The position numbers and the translations under genes are program-made. A stretch of 64,000 nucleotides of DNA from Capillidium heterosporum (lineage: Eukaryota; Entomophthoromycota; Entomophthoromycetes; Entomophthorales; Capillidiaceae): the NCBI GenBank assembly GCA_016630905.1, contig WBMQ01000010.1:310001-374000 (forward strand). Direction: 5' to 3'. Shown here piece after piece: positions 956-46,345 of the stretch; the stretch's first letter is position 1, and the number at the start of each line of letters is the position of its first letter. The notes under the pieces are model-generated. The model worked only from the letters and a program-made list of their open reading frames with translations, had not been told where the DNA came from and did no database searches.

Positions 956-3900
956 ATAGAGCTTCTTGGTCTTACAGTGAGGGTTTGATAAGTAGTACTG
1001 GTCCACCTTGTCTTTGCAGTTATTGCAGTTCCGAGCTGGTATCCAGGAATTTTCTACCTCATCATAATCTTTCCATTTGATCAGGAACCAAGGCTTGTGG
1101 TAACGGATTTTGGCTGCTATGATTTTCTCAACTTCAAACTCTTCAGAGGGTGAGATTTCTATAAGGTTGGTTGGAGGTTGTTCAGCCGGCTTTGGGGATG
1201 GTGTTAATTGACTTACATGGAAGATATTATGGACTTTGACTGTATCGGGTAGTTTTACTTTATAGACTAACCTTGATTTGCGTTCTAGGATCTGGTAGGG
1301 ACCGTAACGTTTCCAGTCTAGTTTTTTCAAGGGCCTTTTACTGCGTAAGTTGGGGGCATCAATCAATACCCAGTCTCCACGCTCGTAGGAAGGTTCCTCC
1401 TGATGATGTTGATCGTAGTATTTCTTATAGTATTCTTGGCTACGCTCTAGGCATCCTTTAAGCTGAGTCTGGACAGTAGCGATGTGACGGACTCGTTCTT
1501 CTGCTGATGGTATCTGCTCTTTATGGGGTCGACGAGTATTGAACTCTGGATGGAATCCATAATTGGAGTAAAATGGAGAAGTGCCTATGCTCTGGTGATA
1601 CGAGTTGTTGTAAGCAAATTCGGCCAATGGTAGGAGTTGGGACCAATTATTCTGCTGATAGTTCACAAATCGTCTCAAATAGCCTTCCAACGTGCGATTG
1701 GTTCTTTCGGTTTGACCGTCTGTCTGGGGTCTGGCTGCTGTACTCAGCTTTAGAGTGATACTTAACAGTTCACATACTCGAGACCAAAAGGCACTCACAA
1801 ATTGGGGCCCTCGATCTGACAGTATGCTGTTAGGAGTTCCGTGCTTAGCAAAGACCTGGTTAATGAATACTTTGGCCGTTTCTTCTGCGGTAATAGACAA
1901 CATTGGAATGAATAAGGCGTATTTGGTCAGACGATCAACAATAACCATCACATAACGATAACCTTCTGAGCTGGGGAGTTCACCAATAAAATCCACTGTG
2001 AGTTCTACCCATGGCTTTGCTGGTACCCCCAAAGGTTGTAATAAGCCTGAAGCTTTTGTATTCCTATCACGGCAGCGTGCACAAACTAGGCAATCCTTCA
2101 CATACTTCTCGACTTGGGTCTTTAGCTGAGGCCAAAAGAACTCGCGTCGAATTAGATCCCAAGTTTTCTTTACCCCTCCGTGGCCGGCGATTGGGTGGTC
2201 ATGCTTCAGGCTCATTACTTCTGCCTGTAATTCTGGAGTTGGGACTACACAGCGACAATTGAAATACAATAGGTCATCATAGAGTTCAAAACCCTTTGGT
2301 ACTTGTTTCTTTTCTTTTAGTGCTAGGTAGTACGGGTGAGTTCTGTGACTTTCCTTTATCCTTCCAAACAGATCCGTGGGGGTACCTTCTTTTGAGAAGA
2401 CAGCTCCCATGATGAACTTTTCGGGACCTAGGAGGGTTGTAGTATTAACTAGATCACGGTACTTCAGGGCTTCCACTAGATCTGGTCTCCTGCTTAGGGC
2501 ATCAGGTAGAACTTGCTTACTACCTGGTCGGTAGGTGATGAAGAAGCGGTACTGGGCTACGAGTTGGCTCCAACGAAACTGTCGTGGTGTCAGTTTCTGG
2601 GAAGTTTTAAAGTATTCCAAGTTGCGGTGATCGGAGTACACTACAACGGGGTACTTACTACCAAGTAAGTACTGTTTCCAGTGGTCAAGGGCGTCTAGGA
2701 TGGCAAGGAGCTCCTTATCATATACTTCATAATTTATTTGGGCAGCAATAAGCTTCCTAGCGTGGTAGGCTACTGGTCGTAACCCTGTTCCATCCTGTTG
2801 GAGCAACACTGCACCCAGTGCATAATCACTGGCATCTGTCTGAAGGAAGAATCGCTCTTCCACGTTCGGGATTTGCAGGACTGGAGCTGTACATACCAAT
2901 TTCCTTAACAATTCGAACGAATGTTCACATTCCGGGGTCCAACTAAGTGTTTTTGACGTGCCTGCAGTTAGCGCAGTCAAGGGTAAGGCGATTTGGGAGT
3001 AGTTGGGTATAAAACGGCGTGAGTAGTTCACAAATCCTAGGAAAGATCTGACGTCCTTCTTCGTCTTTGGGCGACCCCAGTCTAAGACGGCTTGTACTTT
3101 GTCTGTAGAGATTTGAACTCCCTTATCACTAATAAAGTAACCCAGAAACTCTGTTTCTGTTTGATGGAAGATACACTTTTTGATCTTTAGGGGGAGCTGG
3201 TTGTCGTTGAAGATCTTCAGTACGGTTTTGACATGCTGGACATGCTCCTCTAGAGTGTTACTAAAGATCAAGATATCATCCAAGTATGCTGTAACAAATG
3301 TATCCAGGTAGGGGAAAAGGAGCTCGTTCACCATGTTTTGGAAGGTCGCTGGGGCATTAGTCAAGCCAAAAGGCATAACTACCCATTCAAATTGACCATA
3401 GCGACACTTGAAGGAGGTCTTCCACTCATGGCCTGGGGCAATTCGGATCTGATGGTACGCGTTAGGAAGGTCCAGTTTCGTGAAATACTTTTTTCCCTTG
3501 ATTCGGTCCAACAGCTCTTCTACATTTGGGATAGGGTACCGATTCTTAACAGTAATGTCATTTAACATCCGGTAATCTACACATAAGCGCCGGGTACCAT
3601 CTGACTTGCCCACAAACAACAAAGGCGCGCACATTGGTGCCTTACTCTCTCGTATGAAACCTTTGGCTAGTAAGTCGTCAATGAATAGCTTTAATTCCTG
3701 CAATTGCTTTTCGGACATTGGGAACAGTTTGGGTGTTGGAAGTTTAGCATTAGGGATTAAGTCGATTGCATGATCATGTTTGGTAGGGACTCTCAGTCGG
3801 TTTTGATTTGAACTATCCCATACAAAGTGAAACTGGCGGTACTCTTCAGGTGGGAGAGGGAGGAGGTCATTTTTCGTGATTACTGGTTCGACTTCAGGAA

Positions 3901-4438
3901 GTAATGGGATATCTAGTAACGCTTCTGGAGGGACTTCCAAAGAATTGGGATATTCCTGGAGGCATTTGAACTCCTGGTCTTGAATGTATAGACTCTTCCG
4001 ATCCCAGTTAAAGATAGGTTTTGCCTGAGTTATCCAGGGGAGCCCTAGTACCAGTGGGAATGGCATGTTTTCTAGGCAGATTGGGTCAACGGTGTAAGAT
4101 GGTGGGAGATTTTCCTTATGTAACAGTAGGGAAAAGGGGACTTTGGCTCTTTTGGTGCTAGAGCTTAAGGGTGAACCTGTTAGTCCTTGAAGCTTAGGGC
4201 CAAAAGGGTCCGATGTGGTAACGATTGATGTGGCATCTACAAGCTTTTGGGAAATTAGGTTGTAAGTGGCCCCAGTATCAATTAAGGCAAAAGTATGGAA
4301 GGGGACCTCCAATGCTAACGTTACTGGAAGGAGTAGATGTTGGTAGGGACTAGGGACAAAAGAGGTTGCTTGTACTTCATAAGGATCTAGCTTGCCCAAG
4401 GCAGGAAGTACCGGGCTTATTGAAAACTTGGCGTTACC
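932..4438 (-). CDS. pol: Pol polyprotein: protease, RT, RNase H, integrase, chromodomain
   Basis: Open from 4438 to the stop at 932. The first usable codon reported by simple ORF calling is a TTG at 4399; no ATG lies nearby, so translation probably depends on frameshifting from Gag. Counting from 4399: retropepsin motif LIDTGA near residue 40; reverse transcriptase with YLDDILIF near 370; RNase H with DASDYALG near 518 and YSDHRN near 588; integrase HHCC zinc finger about 731-773; integrase core with VDFIGE, LSDRG and QTDGQTERTNR about 800-895; and a C-terminal chromodomain (EVEKIIAA, FLIKWKDY, NSWIP) about 1086-1140. Chromodomains of this class commonly steer integration to particular chromatin. 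No stop or frame break is seen, so the enzyme set may be functional. Confidence 0.94.
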   Translation of the reverse strand, partial: GNAKFSISPVLPALGKLDPYEVQATSFVPSPYQHLLLPVTLALEVPFHTFALIDTGATYNLISQKLVDATSIVTTSDPFGPKLQGLTGSPLSSSTKRAKVPFSLLLHKENLPPSYTVDPICLENMPFPLVLGLPWITQAKPIFNWDRKSLYIQDQEFKCLQEYPNSLEVPPEALLDIPLLPEVEPVITKNDLLPLPPEEYRQFHFVWDSSNQNRLRVPTKHDHAIDLIPNAKLPTPKLFPMSEKQLQELKLFIDDLLAKGFIRESKAPMCAPLLFVGKSDGTRRLCVDYRMLNDITVKNRYPIPNVEELLDRIKGKKYFTKLDLPNAYHQIRIAPGHEWKTSFKCRYGQFEWVVMPFGLTNAPATFQNMVNELLFPYLDTFVTAYLDDILIFSNTLEEHVQHVKTVLKIFNDNQLPLKIKKCIFHQTETEFLGYFISDKGVQISTDKVQAVLDWGRPKTKKDVRSFLGFVNYSRRFIPNYSQIALPLTALTAGTSKTLSWTPECEHSFELLRKLVCTAPVLQIPNVEERFFLQTDASDYALGAVLLQQDGTGLRPVAYHARKLIAAQINYEVYDKELLAILDALDHWKQYLLGSKYPVVVYSDHRNLEYFKTSQKLTPRQFRWSQLVAQYRFFITYRPGSKQVLPDALSRRPDLVEALKYRDLVNTTTLLGPEKFIMGAVFSKEGTPTDLFGRIKESHRTHPYYLALKEKKQVPKGFELYDDLLYFNCRCVVPTPELQAEVMSLKHDHPIAGHGGVKKTWDLIRREFFWPQLKTQVEKYVKDCLVCARCRDRNTKASGLLQPLGVPAKPWVELTVDFIGELPSSEGYRYVMVIVDRLTKYALFIPMLSITAEETAKVFINQVFAKHGTPNSILSDRGPQFVSAFWSRVCELLSITLKLSTAARPQTDGQTERTNRTLEGYLRRFVNYQQNNWSQLLPLAEFAYNNSYHQSIGTSPFYSNYGFHPEFNTRRPHKEQIPSAEERVRHIATVQTQLKGCLERSQEYYKKYYDQHHQEEPSYERGDWVLIDAPNLRSKRPLKKLDWKRYGPYQILERKSRLVYKVKLPDTVKVHNIFHVSQLTPSPKPAEQPPTNLIEISPSEEFEVEKIIAAKIRYHKPWFLIKWKDYDEVENSWIPARNCNNCKDKVDQYYLSNPHCKTKKLYEKGEEGG
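4417..4438 (-). other. Gag-Pol frame overlap, putative -1 frameshift region
   Basis: Gag ends with TAA at 4417-4419 while the pol frame is open back to a TGA at 4439-4441. The shared 22 bases contain the sense string AAGTTTTCAATAA. Moving from Gag to Pol requires a -1 shift. A TTTT run (4423-4426) could allow slippage, but there is no canonical X_XXY_YYZ heptamer, so the mechanism is unproven; reinitiation is an alternative. Confidence 0.5.
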
Positions 4439-6036
4439 TCATTATCGATATTCTTGGTGGGGCATTCGTTAATATTATGGGTATTAGAGGCACAATAGAA
4501 GCACAAGCTATTGTCTTTACGTCTTTGGATCTCTTCCTGAGATAGCTTAGGTCGAGACTTAGGGAACGTTGCAAGAGCCCGAGAACCTGTATCCCCCAGA
4601 CTCGGGGCATAGCCAGGGCCGATGGCAGCAATGACTTCAGATGGGTTATTATCTGGCGGTGTTAGCAGGTCTCCTACTTCATGTATCCTTGGTGGACTTG
4701 AGGAAAGATTAGGCTCCTGCTCTACACTTTCTTGGTTAGACAGTCGTGCGGTTTGGGTCATGGCTTCCAATAAGGTTTTGGGAAAAGGTAATAGGCGCAT
4801 TTTTTCGTACAAGGGCTGCTTGATACTCTTCAAGTATAGGTCAATTTTCACTTGCTCATCGTAGGGAGTGAGTTCAGCGTACTCTAAGAACCTTAAGTTG
4901 AAATTACTGGTTTTTTGAGCTCCTTGTCGAAGACCTAGGATCTTAGTGTACTCTCGCTCTGATGAACCAAAGAAGGTAAGAAAGCGTTCGGAGACTTCCG
5001 CATAAGACAAGTTTTCCTGAGCAGTCGCTCTACCCATGTTTTTGCTCCAAGAGCAGGCTGGGCCTGATGTAGCGGCTAGTAAATGGGTGATCTTATCTGC
5101 ATCTCGAGTGATAGGAGGTTCTTGAGTGTGGAAATAGAGTCCAAGGTCACGTAAGAAATTGAGGATAAGGTGCTCTTCACCATTGAACCGGGGAAATGGG
5201 TGTTGTGCGACTGGGGGCTTGTGAATAACGTTAATCAACTGGGTAGGGTTAGCTTGGGTCGTAGTGATTTGATTAGCGACAGTATTCATAGCCATGTTAG
5301 AATTAGTCTCAGAGGTAGTTTTAGTTGTTACAATGGTAGCGGCTTCATCAATTGGGTCCACTATTTTTTGAACTTCAGTTGAAACTTCCTTTGCTTGTTT
5401 ATCTGTGACTGGAATCACCCGGTCTTGAGTATCTTGAGTTGAGGCGATCATTGGCAGGATATAGGCGTGATAGAGACAAATCCCTAAGACGGTACATCCG
5501 GGGAGCAGGGCCGACAAAACCAGAACATTGGGGTGGGCTGGCATGGAGTCGGTTAGAGATCTTGACAAACTGTAAGGTCCAGGGAGGTATCGCTGGATCC
5601 AGTCAATGATGGCATCATATTGGGAACTCATGACGTGGTAGGTCAGGAAAACGGAACTAAGGCCCACTACTGCATTGGTGACAAAAGCTTGAATTCTCCG
5701 GAGGGCAGGCCGGACAGCCAGGTGAAGGAGATACAACATAAGGAGCGCCCATACAATGGTAGTCAAGTCCCAGTTCCAGGAGGGAACTAAAGAGACGGGT
5801 TGGGACTGGGAAGTGGAGTGGTGCTGAACTAAAGGGGGCCGGCTAGGTGGTGGTTGTGCGACCACCGGTGCCACAGTGTTAGGGTCAAAAGTAGGAGTTG
5901 GTTGATAGGTCAACGTTGGTTCAAAGGGGTAGACGGTATTAGTAACATTAATTGCCCAAAGGAGATGAGATCCGAGGGTAGCGAGGATCGTCAAAAGGTA
6001 ATAGGAGGCTGGAAGGACAGGGAGACTAGACCACAT
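4417..6036 (-). CDS. gag: Gag-like protein with N-terminal hydrophobic segments and CCHC knuckle
   Basis: The first in-frame ATG is at 6036 (TTG at 6093 is the upstream limit of the open frame), giving 539 residues. From that ATG: a leader-like hydrophobic segment about residues 10-28, further hydrophobic segments about 92-110, 118-136 and 170-196, and then a retrotransposon Gag domain from about 270 (FPRFNGEEHLI, FFGSSERE). A zinc knuckle C512-x2-C515-x4-H520-x4-C525 stands just before the end. At least the first 116 codons lie inside the LTR, which is unusual. Translation could instead start at a downstream Met (for example MPAHPNV near residue 164), which would leave the LTR part non-coding. 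The Gag call rests on the central domain, the knuckle and the position before pol. Confidence 0.8.
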   Translation of the reverse strand: MWSSLPVLPASYYLLTILATLGSHLLWAINVTNTVYPFEPTLTYQPTPTFDPNTVAPVVAQPPPSRPPLVQHHSTSQSQPVSLVPSWNWDLTTIVWALLMLYLLHLAVRPALRRIQAFVTNAVVGLSSVFLTYHVMSSQYDAIIDWIQRYLPGPYSLSRSLTDSMPAHPNVLVLSALLPGCTVLGICLYHAYILPMIASTQDTQDRVIPVTDKQAKEVSTEVQKIVDPIDEAATIVTTKTTSETNSNMAMNTVANQITTTQANPTQLINVIHKPPVAQHPFPRFNGEEHLILNFLRDLGLYFHTQEPPITRDADKITHLLAATSGPACSWSKNMGRATAQENLSYAEVSERFLTFFGSSEREYTKILGLRQGAQKTSNFNLRFLEYAELTPYDEQVKIDLYLKSIKQPLYEKMRLLPFPKTLLEAMTQTARLSNQESVEQEPNLSSSPPRIHEVGDLLTPPDNNPSEVIAAIGPGYAPSLGDTGSRALATFPKSRPKLSQEEIQRRKDNSLCFYCASNTHNINECPTKNIDNEVTPSFQ

Positions 6037-6617
6037 AGTATTACTATGCTGAAAGTAAAAGTACGGGTAAAGTATAAGTTTATTTAGGGACAAAGGACGA
6101 GATCAGGCTGCTGGGAACAGCTATGGCTAGGGACAGGGGGTGAGTAACAGCTATTTAGAAAATAGCAAGGTGGAACGTTGTCAAGATGCCGGCTTTTGGT
6201 AGTCGTCGAGGGGTTTAAATATCTCTTTGGCATCGTGGTTGTAGTGATGCTAGCGGGATTGGTTTCCCCTTCGGCAATCCACTACTCTATAGATTAATTG
6301 AGTGTTTACCAAGTTTATCCAAAAGAGCCGGTAATTCGATTAACTACTACTGGTGCGTTTCCATGGTTGGAAGGTGTGGATCAGCTAATGTGCTGCTAAT
6401 CGCTAGAGTTCCCAGGTTATGGTCAAGTTTAAGAAAATAATCAAGGTAATCGAAATAATTGATATGTGGGGTGGATTCATAACTAAGATAGTTATGAATT
6501 GGAGAACAAAAAAAAAAGAATTTGAAAATTAGTAAGAAGTAGAAAGAGGAAGGGAATCTAAGAAAGGAATAGGTCTATGACCTAATAATCGGGGTTGTGA
6601 CAACCAGGGTTGTTACA
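5687..6617 (-). repeat. 5' LTR of the retrotransposon (at least this extent)
   Basis: Direct repeat of 1-931. The sense start TGTAACAACC is at 6617. The inner end cannot be fixed because the other LTR is cut by the window edge, so the LTR may continue below 5687. A primer-binding site could not be located for the same reason. Confidence 0.9.
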
Positions 6618-9568: not shown

Positions 9569-10882
9569 TCAATAACTGATTTCGGATCTATACTCAAGGT
9601 CTATAGGTGACGAAACATCGACGGTAGGATTTGACCATAGCAGTTGGGTGTTGGGTCGTTCGATGGGTAGATGGCTTAGGTGATATCTAGTACGGCTGTA
9701 CTTACCAAGGAAGTACAAGGTTATTGCAGAAGTAGTGAGCCCAATAATCAAAACGGTCAAAACGCTTCCAAGTGCAGTTGCCAGTTGGATTAAAGCATAT
9801 TTTAGCTCGTAATAAACAAAACTTATATTGTAGTCATAGTAGATCATCTCATGCGTCGAGTTATGCTGGTCAACAATGTAACCTACATATTGTGAAGTGT
9901 TGGTTAAGCCGATGTAGACCGAATCTCCATGTTTACGTTTCTCCGAGCAAAGTAATTTTATATCTTGAAGAAAACTCAGCTCGATCCTAGCCCAGGTGAG
10001 TGTGATCAAATTTAACGAATAGGTAAACTTTTGGCATTCCCAGTAGGATTCTGTGTAGCTGCATCCCCCGCTGTAGATGTAGACAGTATACCCATCGAGG
10101 GTTGCCTTTGCTTCTAGTAGTGATTTGGGAACTTGACCACTCGTATTTAGAACTTTCCACTCTTCAAACAGTAGATCATAGTAATGGATTTGGTGTAAAC
10201 TGGCCAAACTATCAGAACTATGATCATACCCACCAAATACGTAAAGCTTTTCTTGATAGATTACTGTTGAGTGATCAGAACGACGTGGACCTTCGGGCTG
10301 CATTAAGATAAAAGAGTTACTCCTCCTAGTAGCTAGTATCACGTGGCCATGTGTCCGGAATGGATAAGGATATTTTTTATTGGAATCCAATAAGATGTGT
10401 TTGTTACCTAACGATGGGTAAAAGCCACCATATATTAAAAGTACAATTCTATTGCCGATATAAATGTGGTGAGTAAATCGAATCGGTATGCCGCTAGTTT
10501 CTTTTTGGATTGTCAGAGGTAATACCGACTTGAATAGTTGCGAAATTGTTTCATTTGAAGTTATCGTACTATTTGCTTCAGAAAAGTTGAAAAACATAGA
10601 ACGGTTGGAGTTGTTGTCGTTTGATTCGATGCTGATGTGGCCTCCAAACAAATCTAAATAACTAATTTGAACAGTTTTGCTTACATCTGTTATCGGGTAA
10701 AAGTAGATCCTTCCTTGATTTCTCAAAGGTTGATCATATTGAAATTTCCTTGCTTCAAAATCAGAACCACATCTTCCTAGAAATATATTATTGTCATATC
10801 TATAGTTATGTTTATAAAATAATAAAATTATTAGTATAGCGTATACGAAAAAAAGTAATTGAAATAGGGTTTTGGTCAGCAT
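9569..10882 (-). CDS. Kelch-like two-TM membrane protein K1 (intact)
   Basis: 437 residues from a true ATG at 10882. A hydrophobic segment about residues 7-24 looks like a signal-anchor. The ectodomain contains kelch-type motifs: EGPRRSDHSTVIYQEKLYV, FGGYDHSSD, and a Cys-containing blade YSGGCSYTESYWECQKF with Asn-rich flanks (likely N-glycosylated). A second hydrophobic segment lies about 366-392. A basic cytosolic tail of 45 residues ends with NTQLLWSNPTVDV and DLEYRSEISY. This is one of nine related copies in the window; K3 (31176-32492) is the closest intact relative and is one residue longer. The family resembles kelch/galactose-oxidase propellers at the plasma membrane, but the molecular role is unknown to me. 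No intron is evident. Confidence 0.8.
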   Translation of the reverse strand: MLTKTLFQLLFFVYAILIILLFYKHNYRYDNNIFLGRCGSDFEARKFQYDQPLRNQGRIYFYPITDVSKTVQISYLDLFGGHISIESNDNNSNRSMFFNFSEANSTITSNETISQLFKSVLPLTIQKETSGIPIRFTHHIYIGNRIVLLIYGGFYPSLGNKHILLDSNKKYPYPFRTHGHVILATRRSNSFILMQPEGPRRSDHSTVIYQEKLYVFGGYDHSSDSLASLHQIHYYDLLFEEWKVLNTSGQVPKSLLEAKATLDGYTVYIYSGGCSYTESYWECQKFTYSLNLITLTWARIELSFLQDIKLLCSEKRKHGDSVYIGLTNTSQYVGYIVDQHNSTHEMIYYDYNISFVYYELKYALIQLATALGSVLTVLIIGLTTSAITLYFLGKYSRTRYHLSHLPIERPNTQLLWSNPTVDVSSPIDLEYRSEISY

Positions 10883-12270: not shown

Positions 12271-14052
12271 ATGAGCACAAACTACCTGTCGAAGCAAGCC
12301 TGTGACAAATGTCGGCATAATAAAGTGTACTGCACTAGGCAAATTCCCAGTTGCTATCGATGCCAGTTTTTGAACGAGCCCTGCAGTTACCTGTACGTAG
12401 CCAAGAAGCGTGGTAGATCCAAAAAACCAGCTCCCTTGATACCACCCCCCAGCTTGCCAACTTTAAAGATCAAACTTCTGACCAACTCCAACTTTGTAGG
12501 TAGATATAACGATGCAAACGATGAGGACGATGATTACGATTATAGGAGAGTAGTTAAAGTCAATAAAATAAGGTTTTACTACAACAACATAAAAGTGCAG
12601 GTGGATGGAAATAGATACGTAATGGCAACCAATCTGTTTAAAAACAGCTTCATGAACCCAAACCAAAAGGTCTTTGTTTCGACTACTGGAAGATTGGATT
12701 ACTTTGGCCCAGGCCCGTTCGCATTGCTGCTGACTATGTATGTAGTACATCACATCAAACCCAAGAATTTGGACAGATGTATTGCTGCTTCCAATAGAAA
12801 CCGAAGTGATGCCACTGATGAGGATAGATTGCCAATAGGTAGACGTATAGAGCTAGCACACCTGGAGAGTATATTGGTCGAAGAGAGGATAAAAGATCTG
12901 GCAATAGATGCCTTCTTCACATACCAAAATACGCATATACAGATCCTGAGCCGTAGAGATTTCGTGCTAAACTATAATAACCAACCTAGAGTGTTGAAGT
13001 TCATAGTGATCGGTATAGGTGTAGGATTCCTTCCCTTCATATCTAAGGATGTTAAACGATACTACTGCCATCTAGCTCAATTGGAGTTAGAGAAAGTTTA
13101 TGGCAAAGTTGCCTTGAGTACTGTTCAGGCCCTGCTAATGATGTGCAACTACCAGCACAATAAAGAGGATTGTAGATGGGGGTTTCAGAATTTGGGTATA
13201 GCTATCCGGATGTCCTACTGTTTGGGCTTGCACATGGAACCCCCGAAACACATTAGTGAAGATGAACAGGAATTGAGAATTCGACTTTATTGGTTGATCC
13301 ACATAGCTGACAAACTATACGGGTTCGGCAATACACTGCCCTTCAGCCACGACTACCGTCTTAGCAATATGCGAAATCCAAGGCCTATGCCGTTTGACTA
13401 CCTGGAAAAGGATAGTTCGGAATTCAAGTTTACCATGTTGAGCTCCGCTTACTTCCTAGGCCTGTTTGCGGAGATTTGCCGGTTACTTTATCTCATCAAG
13501 CTTAAATTCGATTTCATCGATAACATAAGAGACTTCCAGCTGGTTCAATTGACCCATTTTGCAAAAGCCATCGACGAACACCTACTACTATGGGAGAACA
13601 AGGTCGTGTCTACCTTCCATTACCTCAACCAAGGAGTGGATTGGAAGGTTAAGATTACCAATAGATTCGAACTCAATCTGAAACTGCTTTGTAACTCAAC
13701 ATTGATTCAACTCTTTCAAACCTTCTCCAAGACGCAGTCGGAACCTATAAGGACAGAAAGTATGACCAAGGCAACTAAACACTCCAAATTAGCCATCGAA
13801 TGTGCTTTGAAGTTGGGTAACGATTTCTTCTGTCACGGGACCACTATAAAGTTCTATGCTCTAGCTACAGCCACTTTCTACTGGATAAAGGTTGTTTCCA
13901 GTTCCAGTGGTGAGGACAGGAAGACAAAGCTAGGCCTTTTGAAAAAGGCTCTCAAGGTCATCGAAAACTGTACGCCATATTACGACCTAGCTGATGAATC
14001 GCTGCATATGTCTAAGTTGTTAGCACAAGCCGAAAATTTGGAGTTGGATTGA
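12271..14052 (+). CDS. Zn(II)2Cys6 transcription factor TF1 (XlnR-type, intact)
   Basis: 593 residues, single exon. A binuclear zinc cluster is at C11-x2-C14-x6-C21-x6-C28-x2-C31-x6-C38, followed by a basic linker (KKRGRSKK) typical of DNA contacts. From about residue 200 to 380 there is a Fungal_trans middle-homology region, including a segment of the kind CRWGFQNLGIAIRMSYCLGL and LRIRLYWLIHIADKLYG. The protein is therefore a nuclear sequence-specific regulator; its target pathway cannot be read from sequence. Two frameshifted relatives, TF2 and TF3, lie at 25766-27585 and 28180-29972, and TF1 is the only intact member here. Shared flanks show that all three arose by segmental duplication. 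Confidence 0.93.
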   Translation: MSTNYLSKQACDKCRHNKVYCTRQIPSCYRCQFLNEPCSYLYVAKKRGRSKKPAPLIPPPSLPTLKIKLLTNSNFVGRYNDANDEDDDYDYRRVVKVNKIRFYYNNIKVQVDGNRYVMATNLFKNSFMNPNQKVFVSTTGRLDYFGPGPFALLLTMYVVHHIKPKNLDRCIAASNRNRSDATDEDRLPIGRRIELAHLESILVEERIKDLAIDAFFTYQNTHIQILSRRDFVLNYNNQPRVLKFIVIGIGVGFLPFISKDVKRYYCHLAQLELEKVYGKVALSTVQALLMMCNYQHNKEDCRWGFQNLGIAIRMSYCLGLHMEPPKHISEDEQELRIRLYWLIHIADKLYGFGNTLPFSHDYRLSNMRNPRPMPFDYLEKDSSEFKFTMLSSAYFLGLFAEICRLLYLIKLKFDFIDNIRDFQLVQLTHFAKAIDEHLLLWENKVVSTFHYLNQGVDWKVKITNRFELNLKLLCNSTLIQLFQTFSKTQSEPIRTESMTKATKHSKLAIECALKLGNDFFCHGTTIKFYALATATFYWIKVVSSSSGEDRKTKLGLLKKALKVIENCTPYYDLADESLHMSKLLAQAENLELD

Positions 14053-25765: not shown

Positions 25766-27585
25766 TTAATAAATGTTAGATATGACGTGCGGGATTCCAG
25801 GTAAATCTAATTCTAAATTTTCAGCTCGTGCTAGTAACTTAGACATGTGTAAGGATTCGCCAGCTACGAGGTAGTAAGGTGTACAATTCTTGATGAGCTT
25901 GAGAGCTTCCTTCAAAAGGTCTAGCTTTGCCTTTCGATCTGCACCGCTGGAGTTGGAAACCACCTTTATCCAGTAGAAGATGGCCGTAGATAGGGCGTAG
26001 AACCTGATGGTGGTCCCGTGACAGAAGAAATCGTTACCCAACTTCAAGGCACATTCGATGGCTAATTTGGAGTGTTTAGTTGCCTTGGTCATACTTTCTG
26101 TCCTTATAGGTTCCGACTGCGTCTTGGAGAAGGTTTGAAAGAGTTGAATCAATGTTGAGTTACAAAGCAGTTTCAGATTGAGTTCGAATCTATTGGTAAT
26201 CTTAACCTTCCAATCCACTCCTTGGTTGAGGTAATGGAAGGTAGACACAACTTTTTCCTCCCACAGCAGTAGGTGTTCGTCGATGGCTTTTGCAAAATGG
26301 GTCAATTGAACCAGCTGGAAGTCTCTTATGTTATCGATGAAATCGAACTTGAGCTTGATGAGATACAACAACTTACAGATCTCTGCAAACAGACTTAGAA
26401 AATAGGCAGAGTTTAGTATCGCAAACTTGGACTCCGAGCTGTCATTGTCCAAGTAGTCAAACGGCATAGGCCTTGGATTTCGCATATTGCTAAGACGATA
26501 GTCGTGGCTGAAGGGTAGCGTGTTACCGAACCCGTATAGTTTGTCAGCTATGTGGATCAACCAATAAAGTCGAATCCTCAATTCCTGTTCATCTTCACTA
26601 ATGTGTTTCGGGGGTTCCATGTGCAAGCCCAAACAGTAGGACATCCGGATAGCTATACCCAAATTCTGAAACCCCCATCTACAATCCTCTTTATTGTGCT
26701 GGTAGTTGCACATCATTAGCAGAGCCGAGATGGTACTCAAGGCAATTTTGTCATAAACTTTCTCTAACTCCAATTGAGCTAGATGGCAGTAGTACCGTTT
26801 AACATCCTTAGATATGAAAGGAAGATATCCCTAAACCTATACCAACTACTATGAACTTCAACTACCCTAAGGCTGGTTATGATAATTCAACACGAAGTTT
26901 CCTACGGCTCAGCATCTGTACATGTGTATTTTGGTATGTGAAGAAGGCATCTATTGCCAGATCTTTTATCCTCTCTTCGACCAATATACTCTCCAGGTGT
27001 GCTAGCTCTATACGTCTACCTATTGGCAATCTATCCTCATCAGTGGCATCACTTCGGTTTCCTATTGGAAGCAGCAATACATCTGTCCAAATTCTTGGGT
27101 TTGATGTGATGTACTACATACATAGTCAGCAGCAATGCGAACGGACCTGGTCCAAAGTAATCCAGTCTCCCGGTAGTCGAAACAAAGACCTTCTGATTTG
27201 GGTTCATGAAGCTGTTTTTAAACAGATTGGTTGCCATTACGTATCTATTTCCATCCACCTGCACTTTTATGTTGTCGTAGTAAAACCTTATTTTATTGAC
27301 TTTAACTACTCTCCTATCACTGCTATTATCCCTATCGTTCATATCGTTATATCTACCTACAGTATTGGAGTTGGTCAGAAGCTTGAATTTTAAAGTTGGT
27401 AAGTTGGAAGGTGATTTTAAAGCATTGTATTTTTTGGATCTACCACGCTTCTTGGCCACGTATAGATAGGAGCAAATCTCAGTTCAAAAAGCTGCATTTG
27501 TAGCAGCTAGGGATTTGCTTGTCGCAGTATACTTTGTACTGCCGACATCGGTCACAGGCCTGCTTCGATAGGTAGGATGTGCTCA
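25766..27585 (-). pseudogene. Zn(II)2Cys6 regulator TF2, frameshifted copy of TF1
   Basis: Starts with ATG at 27585 and the first five zinc-cluster cysteines (CDRCRQYKVYC, CYKC) are intact. One extra base near 27482, inside the last loop of the cluster, shifts the frame. Further single-base insertions occur near 27062, near 26900 and near 26860. From 26773 downward the copy is open for 335 codons and is nearly identical to the TF1 C-terminal half, differing mainly at scattered sites and in an added tail (LPGIPHVISNIY). All damage is in the N-terminal half. It cannot make the full regulator unless the indels are sequence errors. Confidence 0.85.
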
Positions 27586-28179: not shown

Positions 28180-29972
28180 TCACTCTAACTCCAAATTTTC
28201 TGACCTTGCCAGCAACCTAGACATATGCAAGGATTCACCAGCCAGAAGGTAGTACGGTGTACAGTTCTTGATGAGCTTGAGAGCTTCCTTCAAAAGGTCT
28301 AGTTTTGCCTTTCGATCCTCACCGCTGGAACTGGAAACCACTTTTATCCAGTAAAAAGTGGCTGTAGTTAAAGAGTAGAATTTGAAGGTAGTGCCGTGAT
28401 AGAAGAGGTCATTGCCCAACTTCAAAGCACACTCTATAGCCTGTTTAGAATACTTTATCGCTTTTTCCTTGCTTTCGGTTCGGATAGGTTCTAACTGCGT
28501 CCTGGAGAAGGTTTGGAAGAGCTGGATCAGTGTGGCGTTGTAGATCAACTTCAAGTTAAGCTCAAATCTATTGGTTATTTTAACCTTCCAATCCACTCCT
28601 TGATTGAGGTGGCGGAAAGTAGATACGACCTTGTTCTCCCACAGCAGCAGATGCTCATCGATGACTTTGGCAAAGTGGGTCAGCTGAGGCAGCTGGAAAT
28701 CTCTGATGTTGTCCATGAAGTCGAACTTGAGCTTGATAAGGTACAGCAGCTTGCAGATTTCTGCGAATAAGCCCAAGAAATAAGTAGAGCTCAGCATGGT
28801 AAACTTGAACTCCAAACCGTCCTTTTCCAGGTAGTCGAAAGGCATGGGTCCTAGGATTTGGTATCGTACTGAGATGGTAGCTGTGGCAGAAGGGTAGAGC
28901 CATGCCAAATCCATAAAGTTTATCCTGGATATGAACCAGCCAGTAGAGCCGAACCCTCAACTCCTGCTCATCCTCGCTAATATTTTTCGGGGGTTCCATG
29001 TGTAGGCCCAAGCAGTAGGACATTCGGATAGCTATACCAAAATTTTGGAAACTCGACTTGCAATCTTCCTTGTTGTGCTGAAAACTACTCATGATTAGTA
29101 AAGCCGAAATGGTACTCAGGGCAAACTTATCGTAAACTTTCTCTAATTCCAATTGGGCTAGATGGCAGTAGTGCTGTTTGACATCCTTAGAAATGAAGGG
29201 AAGATACCCTAAACCTATGCCAACCACTATAAACTTGAGTACTCTGGGTTGGCTTTGAAAGTTCAGCACGAAATTTCTACGATTCAAAATAGGCAGTTGG
29301 GTGTTAAAGTATGCAAAGAAGGCATCAACCGCCAGGTTCTTGGTATTCTTTTCGACTAGCGTATTCTCCAAGTGTGCTAGCTCTATACGTCTACCTGTCG
29401 GTAATATATCCCCATCATCAGATTCGCCTCTATCGCTGTTGGAGGCAGCAATATATATATCCAGGTTCTTGGGCTTGGTATGATGCACTACGTACATAGT
29501 CAATAGCAATGCAAACGGACCTACTCCAAAGTAGTCTAGTCTTCCGGTAGTTGAGATAAAGACTTTTTGGTGAGGGTTCACAACACTGTTCTTAAATAAG
29601 TTGGTAGCCATAGCATATCTACTGCCATCCACTTCTACTTTTATACAACTATGATAGTACTTTAGTTTAATAAGTTTACTGTTGGTTTTAGCCATCTTTT
29701 TATCACCACCGTCATCTTCACCGCTTCATATTGTTGTCTCTACCTACAAAGTCGGATCTGGTCACAAGTTTGATATCTAAAGTTGATAAGTTGGAAGGAG
29801 GGGTCAAGATAAAGCCTCTACTAGGTTTACCGCGTTTCTTGGCCACGTACAGGTAGCTGCAAGGCTCGTTTAAAAACTTGCATCGATAGCAAGTAGGGAT
29901 CAGCTTGTCGCAGTACACTTTACATCGCCTGCATTTATCACAGGCTTGTTTAGATAAGTAGGGTGTGCTCAT
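28180..29972 (-). pseudogene. Zn(II)2Cys6 regulator TF3, copy with two frame breaks
   Basis: Starts with ATG at 29972 with an intact zinc cluster (CDKCRRCKVYC, CYRCKFLNEPC). The frame changes once near 29710-29725, just after the linker, and once near 28850, where an extra base turns NPRPMPFDYLEKD into NPRTHAFRLPG. The three open segments (29972-29718, about 29719-28855, 28850-28180) together cover the whole TF1 length. It is more diverged from TF1 than TF2 is. With only two single-base breaks it is either a young pseudogene or a gene with sequence errors. Confidence 0.8.
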
Positions 29973-31175
29973 ACAGGCTGGTTGTTAGATCTGTTGGAGT
30001 GAAAGTTTTAGAAAATGGCTTCTAACTGAAGTTTCTTTTATTCCCTAACATAAATCGATAGGCTTTGACGTCTCAGTATCTTTTTGATACTCTATTTGAC
30101 CCTTTAATTCGCTTTCGAACTATTTTCATTTGATATTTGCATTTTACTCCAATAGCTTGCAATGAATTAATGAAGTGGATGGATATGATTTATTAGTTTA
30201 ACTTCAAATAGAATTCATGGAAGTTGGACTTGAATGGGTCAAGGGTCAAACACTGACTCCTACACGTGGATCCATGCCTTCACTATGACGCCTAGACACT
30301 GATCCACATATTTTATCAACACCATTGAAAAGTTTATTTTTAGTAGATGTATCTGTTAGATTTGAAAGTGAAAGCGGGCACTCGATAGAAACACACTCGA
30401 ACCAAACCTATACCACTACCACATTGCTAATACAATCTAATTTGTACTCGCTCTTTTGAAAGGTTGAATTATAAAAGGTAAGTGATAGTAATATTTGTCC
30501 ATATACACTATGGCTATAAACTTAAAGTTCAAAGCTGCCAGTACTGAAGTTTTAAACCTATAAAACAAAGGCTTAGGTGACTGACCAAAACCAATATCTG
30601 TCAATTTAGAGTCTAGTCTTTAGATAAGCTTACCTTTAGTTTTGTATCCTCAATTTGGCTTCTGCTCCTAAGACCAGCACCTCCAATATGGATTCAGTTG
30701 AAAGAAGTGCTATATTTACTCACCCTCAAAAAGGAATCCAAAAACATTTGAAAAGCTGGAAAATAAATAGTCAAGAGGAAGGTATTGAAGCAGGTATTCA
30801 AAAACTAAAACTAATAAAGACAAATTGCATGCATAAATTAGTGCTGGTTTTACCTATAAAAGTATGCAATCATTATAACATTAAAGCAAAACTTACCTTG
30901 AAAAATAAGCAATTTGTTTGATTGAATAATTTGAGATCGTAAGAGCTTGCAGCTAAATTATTCAATATCCTTACAACTAAACCTTTTTAGAGCTTCAAGT
31001 TCCACCAAGAAATTGTTTCCCCTTCCAGCCCAGCTAGCCACTTTACGGGAATATACTAATCTACAGTATAACCAATAACTGTTCGCAACGACGACAACCG
31101 CCATATATCTATACTATACCAAGGTAATTTTCATTTGTTTTGCAGTTTAGATTTTCAAAATTGTCAAATTCGACA
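29973..31175. other. Divergent intergenic region between TF3 and K3
   Basis: The TF3-proximal part matches the TF1 upstream flank. An 88-codon frame at 30655-30921 has no recognisable features. The K3-proximal end contains CCATATATCTATACTATACC about 65-85 bases before the ATG, possibly a core promoter. Confidence 0.45.
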
Positions 31176-32492
31176 ATGGTGCTTGGCAAATGCATATTTC
31201 AATTAATCTTTTTTACTTACATTATCTTGCTCATCTTTTTGCTTTCAAGACATAACTCCAGGTACGATGAACTAATAACGGCAAAACATTGTTTTTCAGA
31301 GTATGGAGGGAATGCATTTCGACTGGAGTACAACAAAGGAAATGAAAAAAAGGCATCTTTTTACAAATTAACTGATCCCGAATATCATGGCGACATCGAA
31401 CTTTACTCACTGTTTGGAGTCCCTATTCATGTAGAATCAAACAACTACAACTCCAACCATTCCATTTTCTTTTCCCTCTTTCAAAGCGATGAATTCTTGA
31501 CTCCAAATGAGATGGTTTCGCAACAATTCCAAATGGCACAACCTTTAACGATCCAAAAGGAAACTGATAGTAAACCGGTTCGATTTACTCATCACCAAAT
31601 AGACAGCGACTTCATCGAGCTAGTAGTTTACGGCGGTTTCTACCCGCTGTCAACCAACGATCATCACCGCTTAAGGTCAAACGAAAGGTATTCTTACCCC
31701 TCAAAGACGCATGGCTATGTGATAGTGGTTTATAGGAAGAAAAAATCTTTTGATTTAATGGGGCCTGAAGGTCCACATCGTTCTGATCACTCAACGTTCA
31801 TCTATCAAGATAAACTTTACGTAGTTGGCGGGTACGACCATAGCTCCAATAACTTGGCCAGTTTAAATAAAATCCATTGCTACGATTTACTGTTCAAAGT
31901 GTGGAAAGTTCTAGATATGAGTGGTCAAGTTCCCAGCTCGCTTCTAGGGGCAAAGACGCGACAGATTGGACTTGACGTCTACTTCTATCATGGAGGATGT
32001 AGCTATACTGAAGCGTATTGGGACTGCCAAAGGTATTTGTACTCGTTAAATTTGCATACTTTGACTTGGGTTCAGATCGAGTTAAACCCACTTCGAGACG
32101 TAAAGTTACTTTGCTCGAAGGAGCTTAGCCCCAACAAGTTTTTGTTCATCGGTTCGATCAACGCTTTTCAGTATATGGGATATATTATCGATTTGTATAA
32201 CTCGACACTGAGGTTACGGTACTATGACTATGATCCACTTTCAACGCACCACGAACTAAGAGTTACCTTAACCCGAACGTCGTTGGTCCTGGGAATAGCA
32301 TTGACTGTTTTGATTATCAGCTTCACTGCTTCAGCGACTACTTTATATTTTCTAGGTAAGTATAGTTCTACTCGATACCACTCCTATAGTCTACCTATAA
32401 AACAACCCAACAATCAACTGGTATGGGCTAACCCCACCATCAATTTTTCGACGTCTTTGGATCTTGAGCATGGATCGGAAGCTAGTTTTTAG
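31176..32492 (+). CDS. Kelch-like two-TM membrane protein K3 (intact)
   Basis: 438 residues from the ATG at 31176 (the open frame extends upstream only to a TTG). The layout is as in K1: N-terminal anchor (LGKCIFQLIFFTYIILLIF), ectodomain with FTHHQIDSDFIELVVYGGFY, the kelch core EGPHRSDHSTFIYQDKLYVV then GGYDHSSNN, a Cys blade YHGGCSYTEAYWDCQRY, a second membrane segment, and a tail with NNQLVWANPTINF and LDLEHGSEASF. Of the nine copies, only K1 and K3 lack stops and frame breaks. A decayed relative, K4, follows in tandem. Confidence 0.8.
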   Translation: MVLGKCIFQLIFFTYIILLIFLLSRHNSRYDELITAKHCFSEYGGNAFRLEYNKGNEKKASFYKLTDPEYHGDIELYSLFGVPIHVESNNYNSNHSIFFSLFQSDEFLTPNEMVSQQFQMAQPLTIQKETDSKPVRFTHHQIDSDFIELVVYGGFYPLSTNDHHRLRSNERYSYPSKTHGYVIVVYRKKKSFDLMGPEGPHRSDHSTFIYQDKLYVVGGYDHSSNNLASLNKIHCYDLLFKVWKVLDMSGQVPSSLLGAKTRQIGLDVYFYHGGCSYTEAYWDCQRYLYSLNLHTLTWVQIELNPLRDVKLLCSKELSPNKFLFIGSINAFQYMGYIIDLYNSTLRLRYYDYDPLSTHHELRVTLTRTSLVLGIALTVLIISFTASATTLYFLGKYSSTRYHSYSLPIKQPNNQLVWANPTINFSTSLDLEHGSEASF

Positions 32493-38903: not shown

Positions 38904-40209
38904 ATGCCAGTTTAGAATAATATTTAAAGTAATTATCCTTATATATTTTACAGCTTTTATATTCGTCTTGTATTTGAAATATTTTCACAATGACGAGCAT
39001 GTACGCCTGGATGGATACTGTAGGGCTGCAGATACTTTAGTCAACTTTGAGATAGGGAAAAAGGAATCCAAGTACTACTTTGTCCAACGTAGTGAACCTC
39101 AAATGAATCCAGAGACAGGTAGTGAGTACCTGTTGCAAGGGGAGGTCAGCACACATTTCAATTACAGGCGTGATTTTATATCGATACGGAGCCCATGGTG
39201 GAATATGATGGGAAAGTACAATCCCGATTTGATAGTCACCAACAAGCTCAAAGAAACTCTACCTTCAGTGATTCAAAGAGAGACTGACTGTAAACCTATT
39301 CGATTTACCACTGCCTATTCCCGTAACTCTAGTGACATGATCATGTATGGGGGTTTCTACAGAGTGCAAGGTAATGAACCCTACCTGTTGAACCCGATGA
39401 GAAATACCCTTACCCAACTAGGTCGCACAGCTACTTGATAAGATTCAATCCTAAAAACTTTAGCTTAGTTCTGATGAGACTGCAAGGTCCACTGCGATCC
39501 GACCATGCAACTACAATTTACGACAGTAAGTTGTACGTATTTGGTGGATACGACCATAGCACAAACAATTTAGCTAGCTTAAGTCAAGACATTACTATGA
39601 CCTACTTTTTGAAGAGTGGAAGGTTTTAAACACTAGTAAGCAAGTACTTATCTCACTCATAAAATCCAAGTTGGTGAATGAGAGACACATCACCTACTTT
39701 TACTACGGTGGATGTAACTATACGAGCTACTATTTAAAATGCCAAAAGCTCATCTACTCATTAGATCTGCTGTGATTCATTTGGAAAAAATATTCAATTG
39801 ACCAACTCAACGACTTAAAACTACTCTGTGCAATCGACATCGCCACCAAGAAGTTCACTTACATAGGTTTAACAGACACTTCCAAGTTGGTGGGGTATAG
39901 CTTCGATGTACACAGATCTACGATAGTTCACATGGAGCATTATAACTTTTATATATTCACTACACTCAAATACATTAAGGCTTTTTACATGAACCAACCT
40001 TTGGTATCGGTATGACTTTGCTGCTGATGGTTATATGCTTTACGACTTTAGGTGTCGCATTATACCTCAGTAGTAAATACACTTTGACTAGACGGTACGT
40101 CGAGCACATTGCGTTCGAAGAGTCTAATAATCAACTTCTGTGGGCCAACCCAGTTATCGACGTCGCTACATCTTTTGACTTTGAACATGAGTCGGAAGTT
40201 AGTTTTTAA
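38904..40209 (+). pseudogene. Kelch-like family pseudogene K5
   Basis: ATG at 38904, then a shift near 38913 into the frame of a membrane anchor (FKVIILIYFTAFIFVLYL). The open frame at 38968-39438 covers the ectodomain start (IQRETDCKPIRFTT, MIMYGGFYRV). A base is lost near 39393, and the next frame carries RSDHATTIYDSKLYVFGGYD to 39629, where the frame shifts again at the HYYDLLFEEW position. A TGA near 39775 follows. The C-terminus (40012-40209) retains the membrane segment and tail (NNQLLWANPVIDV, EHESEVSF). Full length but multiply broken. Confidence 0.85.
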
Positions 40210-40802: not shown

Positions 40803-42541
40803 TCAGACGAACTTGAGCTCGCTGTTGCCCTTATTTGACTTCAAATCGATACTACCTGCCTCATCAGACTCCTTCTTGATACCAACCTTGATGTTGTTCG
40901 AATCTTGGACGTACTTCAAGTTAGGATCCGAATCGGTAACATAAGCTTTGCCAGACTCGGTCGTAGTGCTAAACTTCCCTTGGAACAATTTAGGGACTTG
41001 GAGGTAGACGTTACCCAAAACAGACTGCAAGTTGAACTTGGGGACAGTCGTAGCGTTACCGCTGAGGTTGGTAATATAAGCTTCGACGTTGCCGTTTTTG
41101 GATTGTAGCTGTAGGTTGGAAGCTGAGTTCAACTTCAAGCTGATACGCTCAGTAGCCATTCCTTCTAAAGTGTCGACGTTCAAGTTACTGTTGCTCGATT
41201 GGATAAGTCCCTTTTCGGTGTTTATAGCCAGGTTGTTGATGGTAAGCTTAGAGTTCAAGTCAAAGTAGACATCCCCCAACGTTAAATTGAAGTTTAAATT
41301 CTGGATGGAACTCAATTTCCTAGGTACGTTGATTCTCAAGTTGGCAGTATAACATCCATAGTTCTCGAGTGGCAGATCAGGTGTCACAATCTGGAAGGAG
41401 TAACGGTCATCTTGCTGCTGCTGGACAAATTCCACCTTGTTGGCGAACCGGTCGGCACTGACGTAGAACTTGAGGTCCAAGGTAACTTTATCAGAATCAT
41501 GGGACTGGACATTGATCCAAGAGGATCCCGACAAGCCTTTAGTCGAGATATCTACCGAGTTTACAGTTTTAGGGTCGAATTCAAAGGTCTTGTTGGTGCG
41601 ATAGATGTAAACGGCTGAACAGCTTCCTGGTCTCGCCACCCCGTTGGTCAGTTCAATCAACTGTTTGGCATAAATCTAGTTGAAATTAGGTTAGTTGGAT
41701 GTTGGAGTATTGGTCTTACGCCCAACATAATGACGACGAGTATGACAAAGAGCATCCCAATCATGAACCAGTACCGATGCTTCTTGACTATTAACTTGAG
41801 CATGCGGTTGTTACGCTTAACTACATTTGGAAATGGTGATTAGTCAACGATATGAGATATAGGATGTAATATACCCTTCTTCTTCATGACAGCGTGCTTC
41901 TCCTTGCCTATTTATAAATGTATGTCAGTTGTGGTTTTTATAAGGAGGTGGTTACACATAGTATTCAATCCATGGTGTACTTCTTTGCCTAGTTCGAATA
42001 GATGTTAATAACACTGATCAGCACAAAGTTAGTTACAGGTCTCATTAAGCTTATGGTGTGTCTCTTTACCTAGTTCAAATAAATGTTAGTCATATTGCTT
42101 CGATGAGAAAGTAGCTACAGGCATCATTCAATTTGTGGTGGGTCTCTTTGCCTAATAAATAATGTTAGTTATGTCGTCTAGTATAAAAGTGTTTACAAGC
42201 CTCATTCAATTTATGATGTGTCTCTTTGCCTAGTCCATAATTTTAAGTTCAATGTTGTAAAATTGTAAGTTTACATGCGGTTTTAAGTTCGGTATGCTTC
42301 TCTTTGCCTAACGTAACCATTAATTAAGCATTTTATAACTATATCCTATACATGTGGTATGTAGTGCGGCATTCTTTTCTTTGCAGGTCTTGGGTTTATG
42401 GGTACTTGGTTGAGTGGAAGTTGGGTCCTGCTCATCCTCCGAGTCTAGGGAAGTGGCCTCTATCTTTGGTGGATGTTCGTCAATATCTTTGAAAATTTAG
42501 TCGTTATTTCGTTGTATTGACATCGATTTACCGTAGGGCAT
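40803..42541 (-). CDS. Single-pass membrane protein with 11-residue repeats encoded by 33-nt microexons (10 exons)
   Basis: Exons on the minus strand: 42541-42532, 42486-42352, then six exons of exactly 33 nt (42307-42275, 42229-42197, 42151-42119, 42069-42037, 41988-41956, 41907-41875), then 41820-41720 and 41675-40803. Introns are 44-54 nt with GT donors, ACTAAC-like branches and TAG/AAG acceptors. All phases agree and give 438 residues. The N-terminal region has seven tandem 11-mers (residues 38-114) of the type C-K-E-x-H-H-x-L-N-x-A. Each junction Cys codon is split T|GC or T|GT by a phase-1 intron. A basic stretch (KLIVKKHRYW) and one membrane segment (about 131-148, MIGMLFVILVVIML) follow. 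The remaining ~290 residues form a beta-rich, Asn/Ser-rich ectodomain resembling DUF4097-like beta-helix proteins. Topology is probably type II (repeats cytosolic). Function unknown. Confidence 0.82.
41875..42307 (-). repeat. Tandem exon-intron units of about 78-82 bp
   Basis: Six consecutive units start at 42307, 42229, 42151, 42069, 41988 and 41907 (spacings 78, 78, 82, 81, 81). The exon part is conserved (GGCAAAGAGACACACC-type in sense), while intron interiors differ except at splice signals. A seventh repeat is fused to the end of exon 2, and the last repeat (41907-41875) runs into the basic pre-membrane region. Confidence 0.85.
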
Positions 42542-45031: not shown

Positions 45032-46345
45032 TTAGTAACTGGATTCTGGCTCATGTTCAAGGTCAAGAGAAGTTGAAATATCGATAATGGGATTCGCCCA
45101 TAAAAGTTGGTTGTTAGACCCTTCAATTGAAAAATACCTATTTATATACCTAGTAGAGCTATATCGACTGTTGAAGAACAACGTGACTACAGAAGTAGCG
45201 AAACTAATGATTAAAACTAGAAAAGCTATTCCTACGATAGAGGCCGATAGGTTTAGGGATTCGTCGATTGATTCTAAGGTATAGTTTGAAAAGGGAAAGT
45301 AGGAATCCATTGTACGTACATTACCACTTTGCAAGTCCACCTGGTAGCCTACTTGTTCAAAAGTATTGGTTAGCCCAATGTAGTAAAAAATACTTTTGTA
45401 GCTAGCAGTCGAGCAAATTGGCTTTAAACCATCGAGTTGATAAATTTCGTGCCGGATCCAGTTGAGTCGAAGTAGATCTAAGGAGTATACATACTTTTGG
45501 CAATCCCAGTAACTTGCTGTGTAGTTGCACCCGCCACTATAGAAGGAAGTCATGTATCCCACTTTATTTATTTTAGCATTTAGTAGTGAGGTAGGAATCT
45601 CACCACTGGTGTTCTGTATCTTCCATTCCTCGTTCAATAAGTCGTAGTAGTGTATTTGACTTAAGCTGGCGCAATTATTGGCAATATGATCGTATCCACC
45701 AATTATATATAACTTGCCTTGATGCATAATTGACGTATGATGTGAACGGTGAGGGCCTTCCAATCCCTTAAGGTATATAGTATTCGTCTCCGAATCAGTC
45801 AACGTCAAATAGCCTTGGGTTCTTGAGAAATAGGGGTACCTTTCATTGGGATTCAACACGTACTCCTTGTTGTTCCGTAAGGGATAGAACCCGCCATACA
45901 TCACTATTGCGCATTCACGTCCTTTAAAATATCAATCGACACTAAATCGAACTGGGCTGCAATTGGTCTCTTTTTGAATAATCGTAGGTTGGGATCTTAT
46001 GAACAGCTTGGTAATCGTTTTGCTTGGAGTGTACAGCCAACCTCCATACATTGTCTGGTACATTACCGAGTTTGAATTGCTATTGTTTGTTTGTATGGCA
46101 ATATATCTTCCCAAAAACTCAGTAAAGTATAAAAACTTTCCTTTTACATCTGTCGAATATTTGTAACCCAATTTATCTACCATCTCGTGTATACTAAAGA
46201 AATCGGTTCCCTCATCGACATTACAGTACGCTACTGGTCTAAAATTTAAATAGTGACAAATGTAGTACAGGTATACTTCGAATAGTAAAGTCGACAAGTA
46301 TAAAATAAAGACTACTTTTATAAGCAGTCTAGTCAATAGCCTCAT
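45032..46345 (-). pseudogene. Kelch-like protein K7, full length except one in-frame TGA
   Basis: One frame runs from the ATG at 46345 to the stop at 45032, interrupted only by TGA at 45932-45934 between PVRFSVD and YFKGRECAIVMYGGFYP. The anchor (LLIKVVFILYLSTLLFEVYLYY), kelch core (EGPHRSHHTSIMHQGKLYII, GGYDHIANN), Cys blade (YSGGCNYTASYWDCQKY), second membrane segment and tail (NNQLLWANPIIDIS, LDLEHEPESSY) are all intact. At the stop, K1 and K3 have ordinary residues. A single nonsense change, a sequence error or stop readthrough could explain it. Confidence 0.75.

Follow-up and report, generated by a model that had tools for sequence, protein, structure and literature searches.

A 1988 paper is said to have described tandem exon repeats of 81 bases in MEG-4/Sm10.3 of schistosomes. 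The schistosome micro-exon genes (MEGs) carry short, symmetric exons in tandem, which are multiples of three and can be removed without a change of frame, and their introns range from 100 to almost 5000 bp, as described in the available parts of three papers (PMC3961193, PMC4015677, PMC10526429). The available text of one of these (PMC4015677) further describes micro-exons of mixed length that account for up to 75% of the coding sequence, signal peptides in most MEG products, and membrane anchors in three. In fungi, a 2024 report of a functional microexon in the Xlr2 gene of Trichoderma virens states that none had previously been described in filamentous species; the portion of the report available presents it as a single regulated microexon within the gene for a transcription factor, without an array of equal repeats (PMC11121469). 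Fungal proteins with repeats include the SP7-like effectors of arbuscular mycorrhizal fungi, which have 6-11 imperfect hydrophilic repeats and, in the accessible sections of the source, are secreted via a signal peptide, share a conserved intron before the first repeat, and are not said to have an intron per repeat (PMC11333574). Last, the Toastrack (DUF4097/DUF2154/DUF2807) and DUF7330 proteins carry their domain C-terminal to a membrane segment; the available text of the Toastrack paper mentions no micro-exon array (PMC11237479).

The present study suggests that a gene of Capillidium heterosporum shares features with these systems and has an unusual structure that is well supported by its sequence. 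The gene occupies 42541-40803 on the minus strand of the window, by which we mean the entire 64-kb stretch of DNA that was analyzed, and contains six consecutive exons of exactly 33 nt, each encoding one 11-residue repeat. We place a probability of roughly 0.7 on the reading that it encodes a Toastrack-type single-pass membrane protein whose cytosolic side bears helical repeats specified by duplicated 33-nt exons. Like the MEGs, it has symmetric micro-exons that are multiples of three, here six of 33 nt in phase 1-1. However, judged against the MEG papers as far as their text was available, it falls outside that group on intron length (44-54 nt in the array, rather than 100 to almost 5000 bp) and on micro-exon share (198 of 1317 nt, or 15% of the coding sequence, in exons all of 33 nt, rather than up to 75% in exons of mixed length), even though the layout works alike. 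It is also fungal, and its product has an internal membrane segment, whereas MEG products are mostly secreted, with three reported to be membrane-anchored as well. With Xlr2 it shares the presence of a microexon in a fungus, and with the SP7-like effectors the presence of repeats in a fungal protein; in contrast to the latter, the array protein has no signal peptide discernible by eye and its hydrophobic segment is internal. Its likeness to the Toastrack and DUF7330 proteins lies in a Pfam match and in the position of the domain C-terminal to the membrane segment. The Rlec lectins of prawns seemed close and were rejected, since their 33/30-bp units lie within exon 2 rather than one to an exon in the available text (PMC7536079). 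The earlier, sequence-only reading of this locus knew of no described fungal family with such a layout. Among the matches listed in the open-licence literature there is no tandem or micro-exon array gene in fungi. The gene itself belongs to a describable family by virtue of its DUF7330 match and Toastrack paralogs.

The joined-exon model, in which splicing is predicted, has 10 exons (10/135/33/33/33/33/33/33/101/873 nt), nine introns (45/44/45/45/49/48/48/54/44 nt), each with GT-AG ends, and an open frame of 438 residues. Exon 1 (42532..42541, 10 nt, this and all following exons on the minus strand) supplies the ATG start and a phase-1 donor, and exon 2 (42352..42486, 135 nt) encodes an acidic N-terminal tail that closes on a first repeat, repeat 0 (CKEKNAALHTT). 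The six 33-nt exons follow: exon 3 (42275..42307, repeat 1, CKEKHTELKTA), exon 4 (42197..42229, repeat 2, CKETHHKLNEA), exon 5 (42119..42151, repeat 3, CKETHHKLNDA), exon 6 (42037..42069, repeat 4, CKETHHKLNET), exon 7 (41956..41988, repeat 5, CKEVHHGLNTM), and exon 8 (41875..41907, repeat 6, CKEKHAVMKKK). Exon 9 (41720..41820, 101 nt) encodes a basic juxtamembrane stretch and the single hydrophobic membrane segment and ends at a phase-0 intron, and exon 10 (40803..41675, 873 nt) encodes the DUF7330/Toastrack-type outer domain and the stop codon. Thus the model agrees with the sequence-only reading on the six consecutive 33-nt exons and their positions, on intron lengths between 44 and 54 nt, on the further repeat that closes exon 2, and on exons that are symmetric (phase 1-1 in all six), divisible by three, and adjacent to a membrane anchor, which exon 9 encodes. 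Other details of that reading required correction. All seven introns of the array region (41821..42351, minus strand; 44, 45, 45, 49, 48, 48, and 54 nt) are in phase 1, as proposed, but the Cys codon said to be split by each is split by only the first six; the seventh, 3' of exon 8 (41874-41821), divides a Val codon (G|TT). The proposed motif C-K-E-x-H-H-x-L-N-x-A is complete in repeats 2 and 3 and lacks only the last residue in repeats 4 and 5, whereas over all seven repeats the second H and the N are each present in four and the A in three. Similarly, the ~80-bp tandem repeat is recognized by Tandem Repeats Finder as only 2.6 copies of 78 bp (42025-42234). Retention of any of the seven array introns would introduce an in-frame stop, and only one of the six frames of the joined exons is stop-free, this being the proposed frame. 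The gene structure and frame are thus evident from the sequence, the splicing itself is predicted, the 33-nt units are very likely coding exons, and all of them are probably used constitutively. A gene of this type is one that automatic gene finders could easily overlook.

Several other genes were noted in the window. On the plus strand near 40012-40209, a short reading frame with a membrane segment, recognized by eye, points to a membrane-anchored protein next to the array gene. A neighboring Na+/H+ exchanger is closest to proteins of Neoconidiobolus thromboides (64% identity) and Entomophthora muscae (66%) and to three metagenome proteins (60-63%), followed by homologs from Basidiobolus and other early-diverging fungi, which puts the organism near the entomophthoralean fungi. 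The window also contains three kelch-repeat genes (9569-10882, 31140-32492, and 45032-45904), three genes with a fungal-specific transcription factor domain (12271-14052, 25766-26773, and 28655-29695), one of which has a Zn2Cys6 cluster, and, on the minus strand at 932-6093, a Ty3-type LTR retroelement with capsid, reverse transcriptase, RNase H, integrase, and chromodomain (Pfam).

The family assignment rests on the outer domain. Pfam DUF7330 matches exons 9-10, or exon 10 alone, at 28.1 bits, a marginal score given the cut-off of 27, and the full-length protein at 26.3 bits, just under it. DUF4097 does not match the array protein, and it scores 44.7-109.2 bits (cut-off 22.9) in the paralogs L006, L009, L010, and L011; the array protein is 30% identical to L006 over ~180 residues (E 5e-16). 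Altogether, we identified in the genome ten other genes of Toastrack type (DUF4097/DUF7330), seven by protein search and three with the DUF4097 profile, while L012, L014, L016, and L017 are second stretches of genes that this total already includes. Three of the ten are weakly matched: L013 (E 0.003 across 57 residues), L039 (DUF4097 22.7 bits, or 25.4 with its neighbors in the frame), and L040 (DUF4097 20.9 bits, below the cut-off), which lies ~2 kb from L013 and is similar by eye. Some paralogs are clustered, with three on C23:1940694-1984177 (44 kb), two on C5:1285946-1288656, and two adjacent on C2:602253-605066. Of the seven paralogs from the protein search, six were modeled and one, L009, was inspected by eye, whereas L038-L040 were examined for arrays and reading frames. 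We searched for arrays with a scanner that requires at least three exons of equal length, divisible by three (15-99 nt) and flanked by intron-like stretches of 36-70 nt, together with similar neighbors and an open frame: it gives a chain of six exons for the array gene and no array in the paralogs, with a chain of at most one exon at all ten loci. The family alignment and profile comprise five members (the array protein, L006, L010, L011, and L015), leaving out L008 (early stop in the outer domain), L009 (uncertain N-terminus), and L013 (early stop at an apparent unmodeled intron). In L008, at 2060-2960, the outer-domain frame ends and similar sequence picks up again in a different frame, which would reflect an unmodeled intron or a frame error.

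A search for homologs outside this genome, of the kind suggested in the sequence-only reading, came back empty: no ortholog of the full array protein was found at E<=1 in a protein database that includes proteins of N. thromboides and E. muscae, and with the five-member profile none of 7999 scored candidates reached E<=0.01. As the search tool depends on shared 5-residue words, fast-evolving orthologs could escape it. The Toastrack fold is a right-handed single-stranded beta-helix; a single-sequence structure model of the outer domain is mostly strand, but at a mean pLDDT of 40, and no solved structure chain matches the family profile at E<=1.

The paralogs indicate where the array lies relative to the rest of the gene. 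In the three best-modeled ones, L006, L008, and L010, exons of 10/81/104, 10/78/104, and 22/81/98 nt, respectively, are followed by introns in phases 1, 1, and 0, and exons 1, 2, 9, and 10 of the array gene fit the exons of these paralogs one to one, exon 9 corresponding to paralog exon 3, which encodes the membrane anchor. The array thus amounts to six extra exons located at the second of the phase-1 introns. The models of L011 and L015 have just the phase-0 intron, and that of L013 has a single phase-1 intron ahead of the anchor, so the full intron pattern is not common to all paralogs. Twelve paralog introns measure 38-48 nt. In L006, L008, and L010, the second phase-1 intron is preceded by G, G, and A, respectively, which indicates that splicing does not impose a Cys codon at this site.

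Similarity among the copies is consistent with tandem duplication. Repeat 0 is nearest repeat 1 (eight of 33 positions differ, vs 15-18 to repeats 2-6), and copies are more similar the closer together they lie (Mantel r 0.55, P 0.0044). Among the introns, homology is clear for one pair: those after repeats 3 and 4 show 77% ungapped identity over the 22 acceptor-side bases, above the null maximum of 55% (150 comparisons), and the remaining 20 pairs all stay at or below this value, most showing background similarity; gapped intron alignments are uninformative, shuffled introns scoring almost as high. We propose that a new symmetric 33-nt exon arose when the 3' end of exon 2 was duplicated in tandem along with the phase-1 intron that follows it. 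Because such a copy spans the segment from the acceptor AG to the next donor GT, the duplication would yield a frame-neutral, correctly spliced exon in one step, without the need for new splice sites, and subsequent unequal exchange may have extended the row. By this route one of ~11 family members would have gained six extra exons, and origin of the array by exon duplication within the Toastrack family appears likely.

Since the array units are duplicates, selection on them is a stronger test of coding function than the length of the chain. Relative to their own consensus, repeats 2-4 carry 10 base changes, of which two change a residue, against a simulated mean of 7.4 (P 1.1e-4). For repeats 2-5 there are six residue changes where 14.1 are expected, with none of 20000 simulations as low, and for all seven repeats 29 where 41.3 are expected (P 5e-5); these P values are approximate because the consensus is derived from the copies themselves. 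Beyond repeats 2-4, the other pairs have dN values of 0.27-0.68, and the residues retained are chiefly C, K, E, H, and L; repeats 0 and 1, with dN 0.27 and dS 0.37, therefore show little sign of selection as a pair. In 17 of the 21 copy pairs dS is saturated (undefined by NG86). Collectively, this pattern shows protein-level selection on the repeats, with the protein rather than the DNA apparently conserved. Saturated dS together with introns at background similarity suggests an array that is old and maintained by selection rather than freshly expanding, which argues against a presently hypervariable repeat.

What the repeats form is suggested by their composition. Across the seven repeats, hendecad positions a, b, and c are invariably Cys, Lys, and Glu, e is His in six, and h is Leu in six and Met once. 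The 11-residue period is exact, and positions d (Lys/Thr/Val) and e (His/Asn) are polar, unlike a classical hydrophobic core. The hydrophobicity profile has its peak at 98 degrees per residue, which is what a helix completing three turns in 11 residues would give, and a (Cys), e (His), and h (Leu) fall within ~33 degrees of one line. By itself the peak carries little weight, because 11-mer repeats can peak at only five angles, giving about a one-in-five chance, a restriction that the shuffle P of 0.0002 ignores. To our knowledge, the 11-mer proteins with this helical period, namely apolipoproteins, perilipins, and group 3 LEA proteins, neither assign one exon to each 11-mer nor share the conserved Cys/His pattern of the array repeat. 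Each 33-nt exon would add 11 residues, or three helical turns, on the cytosolic side of the anchor, and an extended amphipathic helix leading towards it is the most likely structure for the seven repeats (77 residues). That these helices associate as an oligomerizing hendecad stalk is our tentative preference, at slightly less than even odds. Ranked next, and unlikely, is a helix that lies along the inner leaflet or is S-acylated, with an acylated Cys every third turn and no stalk. Cys does occur in all seven repeats on the same face as Leu, the membrane anchor follows the array immediately, and the array gives weak profile matches to apolipophorin (E 0.011, 16.3 bits) and apolipoprotein (E 0.016, 15.3 bits); however, these scores are far under the respective cut-offs of 36.3 and 90 bits, the unrelated UPF0242 scores better over the same stretch (E 0.003, itself below its cut-off), the helix would have low hydrophobicity with abundant Lys, Glu, and His, and it would extend over 77 residues.

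Variable inclusion of the 33-nt exons, by analogy with what is proposed for schistosome micro-exon genes, would instead produce a ladder of isoforms differing in 11-residue steps. Any subset of the array exons keeps the frame, since each is 33 nt long and symmetric in phase 1-1; the introns are short and near-uniform; and in the available text on schistosomes, symmetric micro-exons are described as removable without a frame change (PMC4015677). Yet symmetry follows from duplication alone and does not require regulation. In addition, 99 of 100 dinucleotide shuffles fold more stably than the array pre-mRNA itself (41821-42385, minus strand; z +2.06), which gives no sign of strong pairing elements, and we regard regulated length as rather improbable. 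A more elaborate version would join variable length to metal binding. The Cys-x3-His spacing, present in six of the seven repeats, would allow metal to be bound between helices. With this i, i+4 pair on one face of the hendecad, parallel helices would meet in Cys2His2 rungs, and splicing or exon copy number would tune the number of rungs; the protein would then be a membrane sensor with a length-adjustable zinc zipper whose stalk is counted in micro-exons, a scheme that we think very unlikely to be correct.

The stalk, as we favor it, places the array on the cytosolic side of the anchor. The charge is +7 in the 16 residues preceding the membrane segment and +1 in the 20 following it, and of the N-x-S/T sequons four lie in the outer, C-terminal domain, with a single one falling within the array (residue 90), so that the array is most likely cytosolic; this makes probable the side assigned to it in the sequence-only reading, the single array sequon running against it. 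No signal peptide or N-terminal hydrophobic stretch is apparent by eye, the N-terminus being acidic and the hydrophobic segment internal, near residue 136. With the topology inverted, the array would be lumenal or outer, its cysteines would form disulfides, and the beta domain would be cytosolic. In its favor, the available text on bacterial Toastrack domains, which are usually C-terminal to membrane segments, proposes that they are intracellular (PMC11237479), and the array has its one sequon. The positive charge on the array side, the four sequons within the C-terminal domain, and the apparent want of a signal peptide all weigh against an inverted protein and make it very improbable.

A gene that was once functional, is now untranscribed, and is decaying would be consistent with the failure of the protein and profile searches to find an ortholog. 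Still, 438 codons are open over ten exons and GT-AG is preserved at all nine introns, and this explanation is highly improbable. The resemblance of the array to a row of exons also exceeds what composition alone generates. We simulated 60 sequences of 64 kb that have the dinucleotide make-up of the window and searched each on one strand for exons of equal length, divisible by three and bounded by intron-like stretches. The longest chain was two (36 runs) or three (24 runs), compared with six in the window searched on both strands; when 45% identity between neighbors was demanded, the longest simulated chains in all 60 were one or two. Applied to both strands of 234 kb (the window and 17 sampled 10-kb stretches), which is ~0.8% of the 29.5-Mb genome in 44 contigs, the array scanner had the present array as its sole match; beyond these 234 kb, the check for arrays covered the ten paralog loci. 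A 67-residue array query matched only itself in the genome, and a 17-base motif, with up to two mismatches allowed, had three matches in the array and one on C12 (L004), a locus without an array. The pattern of an isolated 33-nt exon shows no genome-wide excess (183 matches vs 234 in a reversed control), and among the matches listed the abutting pairs are the window's own and one AT-rich pair on C5. Although the array is a tandem repeat at the DNA level, a non-coding ~80-bp minisatellite that resembles exons by chance is almost certainly not the explanation, given the synonymous bias of the copies, a chain longer than in any simulation, the array scan, and the correct joining of the array to flanking exons that match paralog exons.

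In summary, a Toastrack-type membrane protein with duplicated 33-nt exons is the reading we prefer, and exons of this kind could permit the length of a protein to change without breaking the gene. Should splicing vary the repeat count, the helix next to the membrane would have in the array a simple genetic ruler. Moreover, the array gene provides a clean natural example, in fungi, of how duplication of an exon end together with its intron may create frame-neutral repeats, and the paralogs that have the same introns and no array likely represent the state before this event, which opens the step from zero to seven repeats to comparison.
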